A stretch of 64,000 bases of DNA from the NCBI GenBank assembly GCA_025351345.1, contig JANXWB010000055.1:1-64000 (forward strand). The letters run 5' to 3'. The notes under the pieces were generated by a model that was not told the origin of the DNA, ran no database searches, and worked only from the letters and a program-made list of their open reading frames with translations. The stretch is from Synechococcales cyanobacterium GL140_1_metabat_312 (GTDB lineage Bacteria > Cyanobacteriota > Cyanobacteriia > Leptolyngbyales > Leptolyngbyaceae). This document shows positions 35,037 through 44,392 of the stretch, in pieces; positions within the stretch are counted from its first letter, which is position 1, and each line of letters opens with the position of its first letter. A program made the translations under genes and the position numbers.

Positions 35037-35504
35037 ATGGGTCGATCGTATGGGTTGAATCATTCACCGTTATTTTTGGCTTACGATCGAGATCTAGTTC
35101 ACCGTGCGAAGGAGATGCGTAAGAAGCCGACTGCCGCAGAACGTAAGCTTTGGGAAAATTGTTTATCGAAGTTTCCCCATCGGGTTTTACGGCAGCGTCC
35201 TATTGATCATTTCATTGTGGATTTTTATTGTGCAGCGTTGCAGTTAGTGATTGAGGTGGATGGTGATGTGCATGAGTTTGAACAAGCGCAGGTTTACGAT
35301 GAAATTCGATCGAAGATTTTGCAGAGTTATGGTTTGCAAGTTTTGCGAGTAACGAATGCGGAGGTATTGGGGGAGTTTGAGAAAGTCTACGAACGGGTTT
35401 GGGCGTTTTTGGATTTGACGGATAGGTCCAATCCCCCTAACCCCTACGCCCTCCGGGCAGGCTACGCCACAAAAAAGGGGGAACCGGAGATAGAGGGGGA
35501 ATGA
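35037..35504 (+). CDS. DUF559 (Vsr/PDDEXK-like) endonuclease-domain protein
   Basis: 155 residues from the ATG at 35037 (GAGGGAG 6 bases upstream); a GTG at 35022 is in frame. AKEMRKKPTAAERKLWE, RQRPIDHFIVDFYC and LVIEVDGDVHE are the DUF559 hallmark, with D, E and Q-type catalytic residues of the very-short-patch-repair nuclease fold. The last 25 residues (NPPNPYALRAGYATKKG and on) are read from the downstream repeat, so the original C-terminus was altered by it. The gene lies between two copies of the palindromic element. Confidence 0.82.
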   Translation: MGRSYGLNHSPLFLAYDRDLVHRAKEMRKKPTAAERKLWENCLSKFPHRVLRQRPIDHFIVDFYCAALQLVIEVDGDVHEFEQAQVYDEIRSKILQSYGLQVLRVTNAEVLGEFEKVYERVWAFLDLTDRSNPPNPYALRAGYATKKGEPEIEGE

Positions 35505-35609
35505 TGGTTGGGGAATGAATTCAAATTCAAGCAAAACTAACAATATTAAAATCACTTCTTGTTCCCCTTTTTTTCTTGTTCCCCCTTTTTAAGGGGGTTA
35601 GGGGGATCG
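35430..35609. repeat. palindromic MITE-like element, copy 2 (overlaps end of DUF559 gene)
   Basis: Left end AATCCCCCTAACCCC with the module CTACGCCCTCCGGGCAGG, right end AAGGGGGTTAGGGGGATCG. The outer end is an inverted copy of the left end of copy 1 and the inner end is an inverted copy of the right end of copy 1. Confidence 0.8.
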
Positions 35610-35679
35610 AAATTATGTCGTAGGAAGTGAGGCTATAGCTTATTCTTATTTTCAGGCTGGAAAGCAGATATACTACAGT

Positions 35680-37770
35680 TTACATCATCGCTGCGCGAGA
35701 AAAGAGCAAATGACTACCGTCGCCCCCCCCCGCCCATGAGGGTAATTCTCCTCTCGGAGAAAGAGTAGATGAAAATTTGTATTCTTCGTAGCTCACCCAG
35801 TTATCGACACCTCGTCGCCATCCCACTGCTTCCATGAATTTCTTGTAGTCGTCATTGTATGACATTGGACTCCCGCATTTCTCCCAGATCTTTTTCTGCA
35901 CTGAGAACCCAAAATGGCCATTACTCGCTGTTACCCAGAGGTTATCGATCGCTCTTAAATCCTCATAAGGAAAGTTCTTTAAATCTTCTGGATCAAACCC
36001 TTGCCCTTCGTCCTTCCCAACCGTCGTAATCATTAATCGATAAGTCTCTTGGTCAGCCTCACGCCATTCACCCGCTTTAAGCAAGTCACGCAATTTGGTA
36101 TGGTCCACTCCTTTTTCAGATTTTAAAATAATTGCATCGATCGCAGAAACCACTTCAATATCATCATGTTCTACTTCAATCTCGATCGTTGGACAGTCCA
36201 GCCCACGCTTTAAAAAGGCAACGCCTCGATCGCTTACTCCCCACCCACTGATCAACTTACGCCAGTGTGGTAAATGGCCATCCACGGTATTAAGACTGAA
36301 ATTATAGAAATTCGCGTAATCTCTGCGCCAATCTACTAATTCATCAAATAATGGCCATACATCAGATTTCGACACTTCCAAATGTCCCAAATTTTGTGCA
36401 AAGAGTCTTCCTTGAATACCTAACCCAAACTTACCATCACTAGCTTGTGACCATAGACCATCGATCGTATTCAATTGATCTTGGGGAAATTGACGAATCA
36501 TCCAAGCATGTAAGTTCTCATCTGGCTTACGATTTGCCATTACTAAAAACAATCGTAATGTCTCATCATTAGCTTCTTTCCATTTGTGGAATTGTAGAAG
36601 CTCTTCTAGGCGATCGAACTCTACTATTACAGGCTCAACCTGAGGATCACTCGAAGGTAATGCCGCAAGAACTTCTGCTTCCACCACTGCAACATCTTCA
36701 TCCAAAAGTCCCAGAAGTTTTTTAATCTCCATCAGATTCTGAAGTTGGGTTTCATCAAATGGATATCCTTCCTGTTTGACTCCTTCAGTAAAAATTTCGC
36801 GATATTCACTAATCTTTTCCTTACGTAATCGAATGGGTTCTAAAACGCGATCTTTAATTTCCGCAACAGCAGAGTCTTCTAAATTCAACTGTCGTTGCAA
36901 TAATCTAAGTCTAGTAAGTCCAAAACCTCTAATCTCTTCCCCGAATTGCTGAACCAATTCCTCAAAAACAACTTCATACTTTCGTCTTGGATCTCCGATC
37001 GCCACCTTCGCAATCCGTAATCCCTGGCCTGCACCCTTCGCAAACCACTGCGGTACCATAGCCGGAGCCTCCGACTGCACTTTTTGGCTGACATATTGAT
37101 GCAACTCATCCAGCGTAATTTGATCACTTCCATGAGTTGCCGCTGCACCCGTTCTCAGCCCTTCCACTAAATAATGTCCATAGATTGATAACTCTCGCCC
37201 CTTTGATTCAAAGGCATAAGCCATCGAACTCGTCGCCGTCATCACTACCCGTCCCTCACCAAAAATCTCTTCTACAGCCATCGAACTCGTCACTACCCGT
37301 CCCTCACCAAAAATCTCTTCTACATCGATCGCGCCATCATCCATCGGCACGAGATCCCCAAATGCTCCACTAAAACAGCAATTCAAAATAACAGCTTGCC
37401 GCGTTGCCCGACATTTCCTCATCCATTCACTTAGATCATGTGCCGACATTGCAGTTGTCTTGACTAAGTTCTCACCTTTTTTTTGGGTATCTATCGTCGC
37501 AAAATGCAATTTACGATCGCCATCTTTTACGCCATGTCCTGCCAAAAACAACAGCGAAAAATCATCTCTGCTATGACCCAAATACCAAGTCTCAATCTTA
37601 GGCCGCAAGTTTGATGAGGGCAGATCTGTCAGAATCTCCACCTCAAATCCCCCAATCTCTGGATTTCTCAATAAATCTCCCAAAACCCGGACATCTTCCA
37701 GCGGAGATTTGAGTGGACCAAAATTATTTGAGTAAGTTCCTGTGCCGATCAATAAAGCCTTGCGTGCCAT
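35680..37770 (-). CDS. caspase-like (C14) protease with two GUN4 domains
   Basis: 696 residues. The N-terminal peptidase C14 domain (1 to about 250) starts ARKALLIGTGTYSN; the catalytic pair is His79 in LFLAGHGVKD and Cys132 in ILNCCFSGAFG. An in-frame duplication (VEEIFGEGRVV twice, 150-176) follows the active site. Residues 265-370 form an all-helical linker. Two GUN4 domains follow: a divergent one at about 387-503 (KWKEANDETLRLFLVM, LNTIDGLWSQASDGKFGLGI) and a canonical one at about 558-680 (LKAGEWREADQETYRLM, IDNLWVTASNGHFGFSVQK). GUN4 binds tetrapyrroles. The EACC1-like gene lies 5 bp upstream in the same operon, suggesting a two-component conflict or stress-response system. Confidence 0.88.
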   Translation of the reverse strand: MARKALLIGTGTYSNNFGPLKSPLEDVRVLGDLLRNPEIGGFEVEILTDLPSSNLRPKIETWYLGHSRDDFSLLFLAGHGVKDGDRKLHFATIDTQKKGENLVKTTAMSAHDLSEWMRKCRATRQAVILNCCFSGAFGDLVPMDDGAIDVEEIFGEGRVVTSSMAVEEIFGEGRVVMTATSSMAYAFESKGRELSIYGHYLVEGLRTGAAATHGSDQITLDELHQYVSQKVQSEAPAMVPQWFAKGAGQGLRIAKVAIGDPRRKYEVVFEELVQQFGEEIRGFGLTRLRLLQRQLNLEDSAVAEIKDRVLEPIRLRKEKISEYREIFTEGVKQEGYPFDETQLQNLMEIKKLLGLLDEDVAVVEAEVLAALPSSDPQVEPVIVEFDRLEELLQFHKWKEANDETLRLFLVMANRKPDENLHAWMIRQFPQDQLNTIDGLWSQASDGKFGLGIQGRLFAQNLGHLEVSKSDVWPLFDELVDWRRDYANFYNFSLNTVDGHLPHWRKLISGWGVSDRGVAFLKRGLDCPTIEIEVEHDDIEVVSAIDAIILKSEKGVDHTKLRDLLKAGEWREADQETYRLMITTVGKDEGQGFDPEDLKNFPYEDLRAIDNLWVTASNGHFGFSVQKKIWEKCGSPMSYNDDYKKFMEAVGWRRGVDNWVSYEEYKFSSTLSPRGELPSWAGGGDGSHLLFSRAAMM

Positions 37771-37775
37771 CGTTC

Positions 37776-38171
37776 TTACTTCGTTTGAATCAACTGGATC
37801 ATAAACGTATCAATTGTCTTAACCGCTTCGATTTGCTCCTTAAGCTGTGTCGAGTTTTGATACTCCAATACCACCTCACGGCCATCTTTCTTATACGTGA
37901 TCTTCTGAGCCGCATTCGGCTTCAAAGTCCACAGCCACTGAAGCACCTTCCCCACGTTTGCGATCGACACTTCAGCCTTCAGCACTCCCAAAACCAATGC
38001 AGCGGCTCCAGACATTGCGCTATCAGGAACACTCTCTTCCCGAACCAACCCAGCATCTTCCGCCAAATCACTTCGCAATTCTTCTACAAGCCGCAGACTA
38101 TAAGCCTCTAGCGCATCTGGCTCCAAATCCAATCCAGCATGATTTAGGTCAATAATCAGTTCAGACAACAT
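37776..38171 (-). CDS. EACC1-like accessory protein (effector-associated constant component)
   Basis: 131 residues from the ATG at 38171, which has GAGG 8 bases upstream. The layout is a short alpha/beta N-terminus (RLVEELRSDLAEDAG), a glycine/alanine-rich helix (AMSGAAALVLGVLKAEVS), a tryptophan-containing helix (VLQWLWTLKP) and a C-terminal beta pair (ITYKKDGREVVLEYQNS). This resembles the EACC1 family, which accompanies caspase, TIR or trypsin-like effectors in NTP-dependent conflict systems. It directly precedes the caspase-GUN4 gene. The assignment is by pattern only. Confidence 0.55.
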   Translation of the reverse strand: MLSELIIDLNHAGLDLEPDALEAYSLRLVEELRSDLAEDAGLVREESVPDSAMSGAAALVLGVLKAEVSIANVGKVLQWLWTLKPNAAQKITYKKDGREVVLEYQNSTQLKEQIEAVKTIDTFMIQLIQTK

Positions 38172-38384
38172 TATTGGCCTCAAAACTCTTTCTACAACTA
38201 CATCGTAACTATTCCCTAATTCTACACCCACCGAAAACTAAATTTCGGGGAAAAGCTACGATTTATTCTAAGGCGGCAAAAAAGCACCGATCGAGTTGAA
38301 TATTAAAATAAAAAAGCAGTAACTCCAAACAATGAAATTACTACCTTCTATGGTTAAAAGAATCGATCGAATTTGAATGCTTTT

Positions 38385-39218
38385 TTAGTCTTCGTGATGT
38401 GCAAAACGGTTGTAAAGGAAATCCAGGGCTTGATTTCGCAATTGAATATAGCGTGGGTCTTCCATCACCACCGCCCGATCGCGAGGTCGATCAAATGGGA
38501 TTTCTAAGATTTCTCCGATTTTTGCCGACGGTCCATTACTCATCATCACGAGTCGATCGCACAGGAAAAGCGCTTCATCAATGTCGTGGGTAATCATCAT
38601 CACGGTGATGCGATGTTCTTCCCAAATGTCGAGTAATTCTTCTTGGAGTTCTTCTTTAGTGATGGCATCCAATGCGCCAAAGGGTTCATCAAGAATTAGA
38701 ATCTCCGGTCGAATGGACAACGCACGGGCGATCGACACTCTTTGTTTCATCCCACCCGAGATTTGACCTGGCTTTTTATCGATCGCCTCATCTAGGCCCA
38801 CCATGTGGAGATTTGCCCGAACAATTTCATCCTTTTCTACTTTGCTTTTTTCAGGAAAAACGGCACTAACGGCTAGGTGAACATTTTCATAAACCGTTTT
38901 CCAAGGCAAAAGACAATAGTTTTGGAAGACGACCATCCGATCGGGACCGGGCGTGGTGATCGCTTTACCATTCAGTAAAACTTGGCCACTAGTCGGCGTA
39001 TTGAAACCGGAAACCATATCCAGCAAAGTGGATTTACCGCATCCTGAATGACCGATTACGCAGACAAATTCGCCTTCTTTTACGCTTAGGTCTATGCCAT
39101 CAAGAACAGTGTAGTCACCTGTTTTCGTCGGATAGACTTTGCTAACTTGATCAATCACTAAAAAAGGCTGATCTGTCGTTTTCTCTGTCGCTACGATCGG
39201 ACTAGTCAAGGTTTGCAT
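38385..39218 (-). CDS. nrtD: nitrate ABC transporter ATP-binding protein
   Basis: 277 residues. Walker A is GHSGCGKSTLLD, the signature is QISGGMKQRVSIARAL, Walker B is ILILDEPFGALD, and the switch histidine is in MMITHDIDEAL. It is the cytoplasmic ATPase partner of NrtC in the NrtABCD nitrate/nitrite importer and the last gene of the nrtABCD operon. Unlike NrtC it has no C-terminal substrate-binding domain. Confidence 0.96.
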   Translation of the reverse strand: MQTLTSPIVATEKTTDQPFLVIDQVSKVYPTKTGDYTVLDGIDLSVKEGEFVCVIGHSGCGKSTLLDMVSGFNTPTSGQVLLNGKAITTPGPDRMVVFQNYCLLPWKTVYENVHLAVSAVFPEKSKVEKDEIVRANLHMVGLDEAIDKKPGQISGGMKQRVSIARALSIRPEILILDEPFGALDAITKEELQEELLDIWEEHRITVMMITHDIDEALFLCDRLVMMSNGPSAKIGEILEIPFDRPRDRAVVMEDPRYIQLRNQALDFLYNRFAHHED

Positions 39219-39271
39219 GAATGGGTTGGGAATGAAGAATGGTGAATTGATGTGAACTGATAACGGTGAAT

Positions 39272-41323
39272 CTAAGCAGCAGTTTTTAGGCGGCTAGAGA
39301 TCCGTTTTAGAACGGGTTCGTCAAGTGGAATTTCTGTAATGGAAATGTCCCCGCAAATGGTCAGGCTACTTAGATAACTGATGGGATCGTCGGGATTGAA
39401 GACAACACCATCAAACAGCTTGATTACGGTCCGATCGTCCACGCCATCCTGTAATCCGAGTTCCCGAGCGGCTTGTCCGTAGGTATCACGGTAGTAGACT
39501 CGTTCTACGACTTCGCTCCAGTTTGATGGGAAGGGGGTGATGCCCCAGCGTGCCATTTGGGCGAGAATCCAGACGGCTTCCGATCGGCGGGCACAGGTCG
39601 ATCGTTCGACATAAAATTGATTGAATCGCACCAATAGTTCTGGGGCTTGATCCTGGTTGCGTTGGAACGGTTCGATGAAGCCGGGGCGGAGTTGGGCGGC
39701 AGGGATATCTAGATATTCTGGTTTAGCAAGCATCTGAACGATTTCTTCGCGGTTACGACGATCGTCACAGTATTGACAAGCTTCGATTAAGGCTTTGACG
39801 AGGGCGACGTGGGTTTTTGGGTTCTCCTGCGCCCAATTCTCGCGAACCCCTAAGACTTTATTTTGATGGCCGTCCCAAATTTCCAAATCAGTGGCGACGA
39901 CAAATCCTGTATTGTCCTTTACGGCTGCGCTGTTCCAGGGTTCAGAGGCTAGGTATCCATCAATGAATCCTTTGGAAAGTTGGTTTTTCATTTCTGCCGA
40001 GGACATCAGCGAGAGCGACAGATCGTGGTCAGGATCGATGCCACCGGAGGCCAGCCAATATCGCGTTAATAAGCTGCCCATGGAGACTTTATCGACTAGA
40101 CCAAAACTGTGGGGCAAATCGGGGGTCGCGGCGATCGCTTTTTTAAGTCCTTTCAAGTCCCGAACTCCATCGTCATAAAGCTTTTTACTTAGGGTAATGG
40201 CGTTGCCGTTGCGGGCGATGACCATGGCGGTGACGATGGGCGTAGGACGTTTACGATCGGCTCCAATAGTCATGGCTAGAGGCATTCCAGCCAAAAGCTG
40301 AGCGCAGTCGAGACGTTGATTCGCGAGACCATCGGCGATAGTCTGCCAGCTCGAATCCGCGATGAGTTCGACTTGCATCAGACCATGTTTTTTGAAAAAT
40401 CCTTTTTCTTTTGCCACAATCAGCGGGGCGGCGTCGGTGGTGGGCACGTAGCCTAGGGTAACGAGGGATTTTTCTACGGACTGAACGGCTGCGATCGCGG
40501 GGGTGGTCATTTTCTCGACTTCGACCTTACGTTTACGACGTTTGTCGCGTTTTTGTTGGTTGAGAAAACCAATAATTTCAGCTCGGTTTACGTAATATTT
40601 AGGGTCATTGACGACCTCCATTCGCTTCCGGGGACGCGTGAATTCGATGGTGAGAATTTGGCCGATGTGGGCTTCGGGCCCGTTGGTCAACATGATGACC
40701 CGATCGCTGAGCAACAAGGCTTCATCGACATCGTGCGTCACCATGACACAGGTGGTTTTGTATTCTTGGCAAATGGCCATCAGTTGTTCTTGCAAATTCC
40801 CACGAGTCAAGGCATCGAGCGCCCCAAAGGGTTCATCAAGGAGCAACACCTTGGGGCGAATTGCCAGGGCACGAGCGATCGCCGTTCGTTGTTTCATCCC
40901 GCCAGAGAGTTGACTAGGACGTTTGTCGGCAGCGGCCCGAAGTCCGACGAGATCAATGTGTTGTTCGATAATTTTCTTACGCTCATCAGCGGGCAGGTCT
41001 GTCATTACTTTATCTACTGCTAGGGCAATGTTCTGACGAACGGTGAGCCACGGGAGCAATGAATAATTTTGGAAGACCATCATCCGATCGGGACCGGGAG
41101 CAGTAATTTGTTTGCCAGAAAGTACGACTCCGCCAATACTGGCTTGTTCAAATCCCGCAATAATATTCAGTAAGGTGGACTTTCCACAACCAGAATGACC
41201 AATTAAGGAAACAAACTCACCTTGATTGATTTTAAGATCCACATTTCGTAATGCGACATATTCGCCGCCATTCTTGAGGGGATAGATTTTGTCAATGTGA
41301 TCAATGTCTACAAGAATTGTCAT
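39272..41323 (-). CDS. nrtC: nitrate ABC transporter ATP-binding protein with NrtA-like regulatory domain
   Basis: 683 residues from the ATG at 41323 (MTILVDIDHIDKIYPL); the frame continues 43 codons upstream into nrtB but that part is not family sequence. The N-terminal ATPase domain has GHSGCGKSTLLN, QLSGGMKQRTAIARAL and VLLLDEPFGALD. The C-terminal domain (from about 280) starts LVTLGYVPTTDAAPLIVAKE and is homologous to NrtA; in model species it makes transport ammonium-sensitive. It is coupled with NrtB and NrtD. Confidence 0.96.
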   Translation of the reverse strand: MTILVDIDHIDKIYPLKNGGEYVALRNVDLKINQGEFVSLIGHSGCGKSTLLNIIAGFEQASIGGVVLSGKQITAPGPDRMMVFQNYSLLPWLTVRQNIALAVDKVMTDLPADERKKIIEQHIDLVGLRAAADKRPSQLSGGMKQRTAIARALAIRPKVLLLDEPFGALDALTRGNLQEQLMAICQEYKTTCVMVTHDVDEALLLSDRVIMLTNGPEAHIGQILTIEFTRPRKRMEVVNDPKYYVNRAEIIGFLNQQKRDKRRKRKVEVEKMTTPAIAAVQSVEKSLVTLGYVPTTDAAPLIVAKEKGFFKKHGLMQVELIADSSWQTIADGLANQRLDCAQLLAGMPLAMTIGADRKRPTPIVTAMVIARNGNAITLSKKLYDDGVRDLKGLKKAIAATPDLPHSFGLVDKVSMGSLLTRYWLASGGIDPDHDLSLSLMSSAEMKNQLSKGFIDGYLASEPWNSAAVKDNTGFVVATDLEIWDGHQNKVLGVRENWAQENPKTHVALVKALIEACQYCDDRRNREEIVQMLAKPEYLDIPAAQLRPGFIEPFQRNQDQAPELLVRFNQFYVERSTCARRSEAVWILAQMARWGITPFPSNWSEVVERVYYRDTYGQAARELGLQDGVDDRTVIKLFDGVVFNPDDPISYLSSLTICGDISITEIPLDEPVLKRISSRLKTAA

Positions 41324-41421
41324 AGGAATAATGTCCAGGGTGTGAATAATATTTGCTGGGGATGCGGGGAAATGTAGTTCCTCGCTATTGAACAAGCCTA
41401 TTGAAGATTCCAGATATGAGC

Positions 41422-42243
41422 CTATTCTGCAACCACTAACGAACCCAACCAACCGACAATCCGATCGAGCACTAAGCCGACTAAACCGACACTAAACACG
41501 GCTAATACAATTTTGCTGATACTGTCATCTAGCATGGAGGTGTATTCATTCCAAATATAAGCACCAATTCCGCCAGCACCTGTGGAAAGCATTTCAGCCG
41601 CCACGATCGCGAGCCATGCTAAGCCGACTCCAATTCGTAATCCGGTGAAAATATAAGGAACTGTTGATGGGATCAGAATACTAAATAGAAAGTCTTTACC
41701 GGACAGTTTCAACACTTTCGCGACGTTAGTATAGTCCTTTGGGATTTGCTGAACTCCAACGGCGGTATTAATGATGATGGGCCAAATTGCGGTAATGAAA
41801 ATTAGGAATATTCCGGCATTTTCAGCAGGTTTTGACGTTTGCAAAAATAGAATAGTAGAAATCGGCAACCAAGCCAATGGAGGCACAGTTCTCAGGATTT
41901 GAATGAGTGGATCAAAGCCCTCGCGCAAAAATTTGTTAACTCCGATCGTAACTCCAATCGCAATCCCTAGAATTGAAGCAGCAACATATCCAATCCCAAC
42001 TCGGGTCAGGCTATTTAGAAGCTGCATCCAAATACCAGTTTCTGAAAACCCACCCGTAATGGTGCCAACGGTTTGGCTAATGACTTTAATCGGTCCTGGC
42101 ATTTTTGAATCGGCGCTTGAACATAGCAATTGCCAGATCAGAAGTGTTACGGAACTACAGACAACAGGTGGAATTAAACTTTGAAACGTCTCGATCATCT
42201 TTTCAGCGATCGGGCTTGCGGGACGGACAGAAGCGGTTGCCAT
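41422..42243 (-). CDS. nrtB: nitrate ABC transporter permease
   Basis: 273 residues with about six transmembrane helices and the BPD_transp_1 EAA-like loop (AKVLKLSGKDFLFSILIPSTVPYI; shortened here as KVLKLSGKDFLFSILIP). It forms the homodimeric channel of the NrtABCD importer in the plasma membrane. It lies between nrtA (146 bp away) and nrtC. The spacer to nrtA is filled by a palindromic repeat element. Confidence 0.96.
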   Translation of the reverse strand: MATASVRPASPIAEKMIETFQSLIPPVVCSSVTLLIWQLLCSSADSKMPGPIKVISQTVGTITGGFSETGIWMQLLNSLTRVGIGYVAASILGIAIGVTIGVNKFLREGFDPLIQILRTVPPLAWLPISTILFLQTSKPAENAGIFLIFITAIWPIIINTAVGVQQIPKDYTNVAKVLKLSGKDFLFSILIPSTVPYIFTGLRIGVGLAWLAIVAAEMLSTGAGGIGAYIWNEYTSMLDDSISKIVLAVFSVGLVGLVLDRIVGWLGSLVVAE

Positions 42244-42274
42244 GGTGGGATTGCCTTTAAGGTTAAGAATTAAG

Positions 42275-42391
42275 AGATCCCCCAGTCCCCTTGGTAAGAG
42301 AGGACCGGATAGGGCGAATATTTGACATCAATTCAACGTATTGCAATATTCTCCTAGGCCCCTTACCACGGGAGATTTAGAGGGATCGACT
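42275..42391. repeat. palindromic repeat element between nrtA and nrtB
   Basis: It starts GATCCCCCAGTCCCCTTGG and ends GAGATTTAGAGGGATCG. The two ends are imperfect inverted repeats of the same GATCCCCCTAA-type sequence seen at 34795 and 35609, so it seems to be a degenerate relative of those elements. Confidence 0.6.
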
Positions 42392-43697
42392 ATGCTTTTT
42401 TGATTTTCAAGCTAGCCAAATATGCTTTTGGATCGGCTGGATCAAAGGTCACGCCGTCAAAGAAGGTCTCCTTACCGCGAGAATCTTCTTTGGGAATCTG
42501 AGCATCAGGAATTTTAAGGGCTTTAGCCGCTTCACGCCAGATGTCCGATCGGTTGACGGTATCAACCATTGCAAGATCGGCTTCCGTGAACATCCCCCAA
42601 CGAGTATTTTCTGTGACGAACCATTTGTCGTGGCTCTTATAGGGGAATGATGCATTGTCACGCCAGAACTTCATCAGGAGCGGCGATTTCTCAAGCTTGC
42701 GACCATCACCGAAATCAAAGTCACCTTGCATCCGAGATAGAATGTCAGACGATGGTGCTTTGATGTATTGATCAGCTTCGGTCAGCTTGCACATCTCAGC
42801 CTTATTTTCGTCCTTGTCGCACCACATTTGAGCTTCCATTATCGCCATGAGGAGTGCTTTTGCAGCCTTGGGATTCTTGTCGGCCCAGTCTTTGCGGACG
42901 GTGAGAGATTTTTCGGGGTGGTCTTTCCAGAGTTGGCCAGTCGTGAGGGCGTTATAACCGAGTTGCTTAGTGACGAGACGCTGGTTCCAGGGTTCACCAA
43001 CGCAGAATGAATCCATGGATTTGGTTTCCATGTTAGCTACCATTTGGGCGGGTGGAATAACCTTAATGTCCACGTCTTCGTCAGGATTAACACCATTGGC
43101 AGCAAGCCAGTAGCGCGTCCAGAGGTCGTGGGTTCCCCCAGGAAAAGTCACGGCACATTGGAATTTTTTGCCCGCAGCCTTGATTTCATCAACCTTCGAC
43201 TTGAGCTTGTCCGCCTTAACCTCAAATTTCTGATCCGCATATTTACTAGAAATAGAGATGCCTTGACCATTTAGATTTAAACGGGCCAAGATGTACATGG
43301 GGATTTTGACATTTCCCTTGGTGATCTTGCCGGAGGTCAACATATAGGACATCGGAGTCAAGATGTGCGCGCCATCTAGACCGCCTTTATCGCCGCCGAG
43401 TTCTATATTGTCACGGGTATTAGCCCAAGATGTCTGTTTCTTAACCTCGGCGCCTTTTAGCCCATACTTCGCGAAAATACCTTTTTCCTTAGCAATCACC
43501 AAGGGTGCACAATCAGTGAGTGGAATGAAGCCCAGAGTGACTTTATCCGTTTCGGGACTGTCACCTGTACCACTGTTGACGGCTGGGACAGAGCTTGTAT
43601 TAGAACTGGTGCCGGAACTACAGCCATTGGCCAACATTGTTCCGGCTGCCGTTGCACCGACCGTTAGAAGAAATTTTCGTCTTGAAAAATTAGCCAT
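42390..43697 (-). CDS. nrtA: nitrate/nitrite-binding lipoprotein
   Basis: 435 residues from the ATG at 43697. The N-terminus has a twin-arginine motif (NFSRRKFLLTVGATAAG) and a lipobox (MLANGC), so it is an exported lipoprotein. The binding domain begins VTLGFIPLTDCAPLVIAKEK. It captures nitrate and nitrite in the periplasm and delivers them to NrtBCD. It is the first gene of the operon and has an NtcA-type promoter upstream. Confidence 0.96.
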   Translation of the reverse strand: MANFSRRKFLLTVGATAAGTMLANGCSSGTSSNTSSVPAVNSGTGDSPETDKVTLGFIPLTDCAPLVIAKEKGIFAKYGLKGAEVKKQTSWANTRDNIELGGDKGGLDGAHILTPMSYMLTSGKITKGNVKIPMYILARLNLNGQGISISSKYADQKFEVKADKLKSKVDEIKAAGKKFQCAVTFPGGTHDLWTRYWLAANGVNPDEDVDIKVIPPAQMVANMETKSMDSFCVGEPWNQRLVTKQLGYNALTTGQLWKDHPEKSLTVRKDWADKNPKAAKALLMAIMEAQMWCDKDENKAEMCKLTEADQYIKAPSSDILSRMQGDFDFGDGRKLEKSPLLMKFWRDNASFPYKSHDKWFVTENTRWGMFTEADLAMVDTVNRSDIWREAAKALKIPDAQIPKEDSRGKETFFDGVTFDPADPKAYLASLKIKKA

Positions 43698-44392
43698 GAG
43701 TCCGTATGTCCGATCGATGAGTATAAATTGAGAATTAGCTAGCGAAGAGCCTGCACTCTGGAAATTAACTAACAGTTTCAATAGTGAAAAGTTAATTTAA
43801 TTGAAGACTTTATTTTGTATGGAAAAGTACAAAAAACGACGCTAAATGCTTTTCTTAAATTCTACTAATCCATATATTGCAATTTGTATACTTTGTAACT
43901 TTTTAGTGAAAAGCTAACATAAAAACCTTGAGAATCCTTGCCACCAAGAGTTATAGAAGAAAGTATGAGAAATTAGTGATTTTGAGTAGAGGTTTTAAGA
44001 CAGACAGGTAGCCAGTAAAAATAGTAGATTTTTTAGTTTGTAAATGAGCAATGGATCTTTATCATAAGTTTTCTGTATCGTAATAAACAGTTTTAATTAT
44101 TAATTGGTTTCTAGATTCGATCGCATTTGTTCTAAATAAATCCAATAAATTGGATTTTGTTAAATCAGATACGGAATCTAGGAAGAATCCAGAGTGAGTT
44201 GATTAAATTAATAGGGTTATAAAAAACAAAAAATGGCCAAGAACTAGAAGATAATTTCCGGCCATTGTATTTTTAAAGATTTTAAGTTCTCAGTTCAGAG
44301 ATCGGTTCACTGTTTCTATTGTAGTAGGTACGATCGGGTGCAGATCCTTGTTGGATTACGACCATACCAAGCAGGACTATATTGAGTCATGG
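43698..44392. other. intergenic region upstream of nrtA
   Basis: About 700 AT-rich bases. It contains the NtcA promoter of nrtA (43789-43830). The remainder to 44392 shows no gene. A short inverted repeat with an A/T-rich flank near 44229-44275 (GGCCA and TGGCC) could be a weak terminator. Confidence 0.5.
43789..43830 (-). promoter_or_regulatory. NtcA-activated promoter of nrtABCD
   Basis: On the minus strand the sequence GTACTTTTCCATAC (43830-43817) is a perfect GTAN8TAC NtcA box. After exactly 22 bases comes TAACTT (43794-43789), a TAN3T -10 element. This is the canonical layout of NtcA class II promoters for nitrogen-assimilation genes, which fits activation of nitrate uptake when ammonium is absent. 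The leader to the nrtA ATG is about 85 bases. Confidence 0.88.

Follow-up and report, generated by a model that had tools for sequence, protein, structure and literature searches.

EACC1-caspase conflict systems, as presented in the sections of Kaur et al. (2020, PMC7159879) on which we draw, are widespread among actinobacteria and scattered in proteobacteria, and they share a constant-plus-variable layout in which the variable part was read as the effector; the same sections predict one conserved transmembrane helix in the EACC1 protein. Acaryochloris marina and one or more further cyanobacteria have fusions of a caspase to GUN4, according to the portion of Jiang et al. (2010, PMC2853523) available to us. 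For GUN4 itself, the part of Rockwell and Lagarias (2023, PMC10156173) used here places the LxNxLR motif of the Synechocystis protein at residues 209-214, with Asn211 close to the bilin, and records that the N219G mutation of CrGUN4, at the Asn211 equivalent, abolishes bilin binding and keeps porphyrin binding. The arginine equivalent to Synechocystis Arg214 supports porphyrin binding and affinity (PMC8967248). FGE and CLec domains, in turn, are diversified by DGRs, and Dore et al. (2024, PMC10907252) interpret them as sensors of antigens within conflict systems.

The window (the whole 64,000-nucleotide stretch of DNA that was analysed) carries on its minus strand two adjacent genes, P0002 and P0001, that we compared with these systems. 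At a probability of about 0.5, we read them as a two-gene conflict or stress module in which the caspase is triggered by a hypervariable GUN4-fold sensor, with an EACC1 partner. The features on which this reading draws are listed below.

37776..38171, minus strand: P0002, the EACC1-like protein, 131 aa (Pfam EACC1, AlphaFold model)
35680..37770, minus strand: P0001, the caspase-linker-GUN4-GUN4 protein, 696 aa (Pfam, AlphaFold, Foldseek)
37042..37764, minus strand: Peptidase_C14 (caspase) domain, residues 3-243 (Pfam E 1.1e-12)
37534-37536, minus strand: codon of His79
37375-37377, minus strand: codon of Cys132
37219..37323, minus strand: tandem duplication inside the caspase domain, residues 150-165 and 166-184 (the sister gene is without it)
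36661..36990, minus strand: helical linker, residues about 261-370 (common to the caspase family)
36268..36624, minus strand: GUN4 domain 1, residues 383-501, divergent, without LxNxLR (126 bits)
35740..36120, minus strand: GUN4 domain 2, residues 551-677, with GELP at its end (Pfam, 123.6 bits)
35707..35739, minus strand: hypervariable segment with a nine-G run, coding for SWAGGGDGSHL (differs from the sister gene)
35609..35706, minus strand: conserved 3' DNA element (model R1, positions 3-98; 25.6 bits, E 6.5e-7)

P0002 lies upstream of P0001 on the same strand with a spacer of 5 bases (37771-37775), exactly as the initial annotation had described, and an alternative GTG start at 38231 would lengthen it to 151 aa. 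P0001 opens with the Peptidase_C14 domain, which is followed by the helical linker and then by the two GUN4 domains, and a Foldseek search with its AlphaFold model returned the MALT1 paracaspase at E 2.5e-9. The dyad singled out in the initial annotation is intact, His79 being kept in 73 of 74 relatives and Cys132 in all 74; by this dyad and by its modelled fold P0001 is a C14 caspase with predicted protease activity. It scores 130.1 bits against the NCBIfam model NF047832 (caspase_w_EACC1; cut-off 140), which each of the 74 relatives matches with E <= 1e-3 (best 3.8e-54). The helical linker, which is reminiscent of TerB-like helical domains, is repeated several times at locus L040 (2343-5270), and one relative matches Pfam Tic110 at E 1.7e-4.

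Against Pfam EACC1 (PF19953) P0002 reaches 21.7 bits (E 2e-4; curated cut-off 23.6), and its 94% identical orthologue in the sister genome G006 scores 25.8 bits, above the cut-off. The resemblance to EACC1 that had first been noticed in P0002 therefore holds at family level, whereas the "Gly/Ala helix" once taken as part of its layout is modelled as a beta strand (residues 59-69) within a soluble alpha/beta fold (AlphaFold pLDDT 85). When the family of the small protein was compared by hhalign with a single bona fide EACC1 of cyanobacteria, the relationship was not supported, and the predicted conserved transmembrane helix was not found in the cyanobacterial family, where the top 19-residue hydropathy is 0.6-1.8 and mostly below 1.6 and the segment at the predicted transmembrane site contains charged residues. 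For both reasons we name P0002 EACC1-like rather than file it as a member, and the cyanobacterial protein is, as far as composition and model indicate, without a transmembrane helix. A fold search with P0002 found no PDB match at E <= 0.001 and returned weak ubiquitin-like matches only. Proteins of about 298 aa in which an EACC1-like domain is joined to TIR occur at L040 (6049-6942), L042 (5633-6529) and L043 (6271-7170), and the one at L040 lies upstream of a caspase gene, the one such case.

Of 101 EACC1-like genes at the cyanobacterial loci examined, nearly all of these loci having been selected through the EACC1-like gene rather than through the caspase, 88 are followed by a same-strand caspase gene, and in 79 of these pairs the gap is between -25 and 60 nt. 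Some of the unpaired EACC1-like genes belong to EACC1-TIR fusions or stand where a contig ends. The pairing, for which the initial annotation had looked to the genome neighbourhoods of other cyanobacteria, is thus real and far above chance. When 390 genomes of the class were searched with the small-protein profile, 164 of them had matches, part of which are TIR hits; the profile includes a TIR part, and matches at columns about 98-194 are TIR and were discarded. The domain that follows the caspase is exchangeable, being FGE (FGE-sulfatase) in 27 of the 74 relatives, GUN4 in 12, a periplasmic-binding type in 5 and EAL in 2, with each further type seen once. An exchangeable domain after a constant caspase places these genes in a cyanobacterial branch of the known EACC1-caspase conflict systems, and the module in the window is a GUN4-bearing variant of that two-gene system. 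Elsewhere in the survey, L138, L144 and L145 are EACC1-caspase-FGE orthologues that differ mainly in the C-terminal FGE, as DGR targets would. On the same strand as the pair, window positions 38385-43781 hold a look-alike of a nitrate/nitrite-type ABC transport operon (two ATPases, permease, binding protein), and the surroundings look like a transport operon and not like a defence island.

Both GUN4 domains of P0001 are recognisable. Pfam GUN4 matches in two stretches at E 1.1e-57 in total, the best at residues 551-679, and a GUN4 model built in this analysis gives 126 bits for residues 383-501 and 174 bits for 551-677. Domain 1, of low AlphaFold confidence and recognised by sequence alone, finds solved GUN4 structures at E 1.7e-6, and Foldseek aligns the P0001 model with porphyrin-bound Synechocystis GUN4 (4xkc) at an rmsd of 1.9 over 151 columns. 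The initial view of one divergent and one canonical GUN4 domain is therefore upheld by Pfam, by our own model and by Foldseek, domain 1 by sequence; neither a GUN4 mismatch nor a lack of pairing in other cyanobacteria was found, and the likeness of P0002 to EACC1 stands at family level.

The C-terminal end of the protein adds two features to the initial annotation, a tail cassette and a conserved 3' element, and the cassette appears to us the part of the whole module most worth following. In the last GUN4 domain of P0001 the variable segment sits exactly at the LxNxLR position. Cassette-bearing GUN4 domains continue after GHLP (Synechocystis residues 205-208) with a segment of 12-157 nt, composed of G 0.47, T 0.32, A 0.12 and C 0.09, and then with a conserved DNA element of ~125 nt that begins TCTCTTCTCTCGC and extends beyond the stop codon; in the window the element covers the last P0001 codons and continues beyond the stop. 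Its reading phase is evenly distributed (17, 17, 15), and its translations in the three frames (LLSRRDL, SSLAQRLVNCSTSQS and LFSRAETCEL) each end in a stop. The element is present in 42 of 116 genomes, with 55 of its 62 copies directly after a GUN4 domain, and the window copy, at 25.6 bits, is eroded. Compared with the sister gene the window segment is 41-42% identical, against about 90% for the body; across six orthologue pairs the identities are 0.15-0.60 for the segment, 0.82-0.89 for the body and 69-94% for the element. With an unrelated-gene baseline of 0.41 +/- 0.10, the segment is as divergent between close orthologues as between unrelated genes, and within one genus orthologous flanks surround wholly different segments. 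The 48 cassette-bearing GUN4 proteins carry NACHT (18), caspase (10), TIR (6), FGE (5) and kinase (3) domains, counts that are minima because some loci reach just 1500 bases upstream; these partner domains are the usual parts of bacterial conflict proteins. In the same genome as the window, a GUN4 protein of NACHT type encoded at locus L239 (G000:C38:74000-84000) bears the cassette and terminates in SLFSRKDL. At L232 (G062:C1:2030000-2049999), where GUN4 proteins are clustered, 8 kb hold 4 element copies, and one of the proteins is a kinase with two GUN4 stretches, and element copies at about 1498 in both L165 and L182 have no recognisable upstream GUN4 and are solo elements or remnants.

The variability of the tail may have no function, the segment being an unconstrained, G-rich and slippage-prone 3' end of paralogous GUN4 domains that no longer bind tetrapyrrole, with the caspase gated otherwise; this we consider possible but doubtful. 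Homopolymer runs are modestly in excess in the segments (116 compared with 86 in shuffles, a weak slippage signal), the window segment has its nine-G run, all three frames are tolerated, and intergenic DNA 130-330 nt downstream is likewise poorly conserved (0.44-0.61). However, the element directly after the segment stays 69-94% identical, the segment is strongly biased towards G/T on one strand and shows no tandem periodicity, third positions of the body are 0.65-0.83 identical, the variable position coincides with the ligand cleft, and the segment occurs on proteins of immune type. Segment turnover above the neutral rate is likely, though the poor conservation of the downstream intergenic DNA leaves it short of proven.

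In a second alternative, the one put forward in the initial annotation, a tetrapyrrole bound by the GUN4 domains would turn the protease on or off in response to photosynthetic state or damage. The GUN4 fold is genuine, the consulted sections of Kaur et al. (PMC7159879) propose the same for GUN4 fusions in general, and CrGUN4 without Asn219 still binds porphyrin, not bilin, by the account drawn from PMC10156173. Alignment nevertheless showed that LxNxLR, with Asn211 and Arg214, is absent from both P0001 domains, from all caspase-fused GUN4 domains aligned and from all 47 of the cassette-bearing GUN4 proteins compared, while the GUN4 orthologue of the same genome retains the bilin motif as LTNQLR. 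The Arg214 equivalent matters for porphyrin affinity (PMC8967248), and the variable tail stands in for the ligand end. Given the lost motif, control of P0001 by a bilin is unlikely; since the CrGUN4 asparagine mutant lost bilin but not porphyrin binding, control by a porphyrin, though weakened as a hypothesis, may still apply. The tetrapyrrole switch as a whole seems to us improbable and, as stated, is not supported.

A further and quite improbable explanation is that the gene in the window is decaying and non-functional. Relative to the 680-aa sister protein the window copy has the extra tandem duplication (residues 150-184) just after Cys132, beside the active site, which it alone shows among the 74 relatives; its Cys132-Tyr197 spacing of 66 residues is the maximum of the 74, the rest having 43-60, and AlphaFold confidence is low at the duplication. 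The C-terminal end is also altered, AAMM replacing the DL-type ending of the sister, and with the insertion and the eroded 3' element the window copy may be impaired. Decay is opposed by two intact reading frames, by the kept dyad and by an identity of about 95% to a sister gene that has no duplication; the duplication and the altered end are either genuine biology or an assembly fault. Just past the 3' element, at about 35420-35620, the window contains a C/G-rich, MITE-like repeated stretch (CCCCTAACCCC...AAAGGGGGAAC), and a comparable stretch lies downstream of the sister gene L030.

Several causes of the tail variation were considered and rejected. A tandem-repeat origin was dropped for absent periodicity, G-quadruplex-driven instability for a match in 11 of 48 segments against a shuffle mean of 7.75 and maximum of 13, and an RNA element for the absence of an Rfam match and of conserved pairing in the 3' element. 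Searches for mobile spread gave no exact match in viral contigs and no match in plasmids. That the segment is a DGR variable region, or is swapped with silent donor cassettes, is very improbable: the conserved DNA 3' of the segment resembles a DGR target layout and FGE domains of proteins of this kind are DGR targets (PMC7517822; PMC10907252), but segment lengths and phases vary, unlike those of DGR targets, RVT_1 reverse transcriptase was undetected in two near-complete element-bearing genomes and no copy of the element was found at the RT or FGE loci examined, so that a DGR was rejected, as was gene conversion from donor cassettes, the window and G220 segments each being unique in their own genome.

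In the sensor-caspase module that we favour, the EACC1-like protein would be a soluble constant partner, the caspase the effector and output, and the C-terminal module, in P0001 the two GUN4-fold domains, the sensor and input. In the last GUN4 domain the LxNxLR segment, which in true GUN4 covers the tetrapyrrole cleft, has given way to a hypervariable G/T-coded tail whose conserved end offers a stop in each of the three frames. We infer that the GUN4/tail module would bind a ligand that varies, namely an invader- or damage-derived molecule, and that the signal would pass via the helical linker and EACC1 to release the caspase, which would cut cell proteins and arrest or kill the cell; a cell-suicide or antiviral role would fit the domain company. 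The direction of signalling draws on the FGE examples, which, by analogy, point to the C-terminal domain as sensor, opposite to the effector reading of Kaur et al. Weighing against the sensor-caspase module are its transport-operon surroundings instead of a defence island, the insertion beside the active site and eroded element of the window copy, and the score of P0002 itself below the EACC1 cut-off. More broadly, and only tentatively, the tail may be a hypervariable sensor cassette independent of reverse transcriptase, in which a GUN4 fold would have its ligand-cleft segment replaced by a G/T-rich stretch, variable in length and phase and positioned by the conserved ~125-nt element with stops in all frames, and would serve as an antibody-like recognition end on caspase, NACHT, TIR and kinase effectors, diversified by a mutagenic mechanism. 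With these results, sizeable numbers of cyanobacterial cases join the EACC1-caspase conflict systems, and two assumptions come into question, namely the membrane location of EACC1 and the sensing of tetrapyrroles by GUN4 fusions; a rapidly changing segment between conserved flanks at the ligand position of a known fold is a candidate second route, beside DGRs, to hypervariable immune-type receptors.

Compared with known systems, the module is like the EACC1-caspase system (PMC7159879, NF047832, PF19953), in the parts of that description used here, in having a small 5' gene, a 3' caspase gene and an exchangeable C-terminal domain; it is unlike it in that the cyanobacterial small protein scores around the cut-off and has no transmembrane helix, and GUN4 is absent from the C-terminal domains given in the sections of Kaur et al. 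to which we refer. It resembles the cyanobacterial orthocaspase-GUN4 fusions of Jiang et al. in joining caspase and GUN4 in one protein, although the EACC1-like partner, the motif loss and the variable tail are not described in the portion of that paper cited here. Asn211/Asn219 is missing in P0001 as in the GUN4 paralogues of Rockwell and Lagarias, in whose paper, as far as the cited part goes, neither a hypervariable tail nor a conserved 3' element appears. The PADLOC model of the PD-T4-6 kinase defence (PDLC04062) matches the GUN4 part of P0001, which, unlike PD-T4-6, is without a Ser/Thr kinase domain by Pfam. With the DGR-diversified CLec/FGE sensors (PMC10907252) the module shares a hypervariable C-terminal domain on NTPase or protease conflict proteins, but it differs in its GUN4 scaffold, in a segment whose length and phase are not fixed, and in having no reverse transcriptase linked to that segment.
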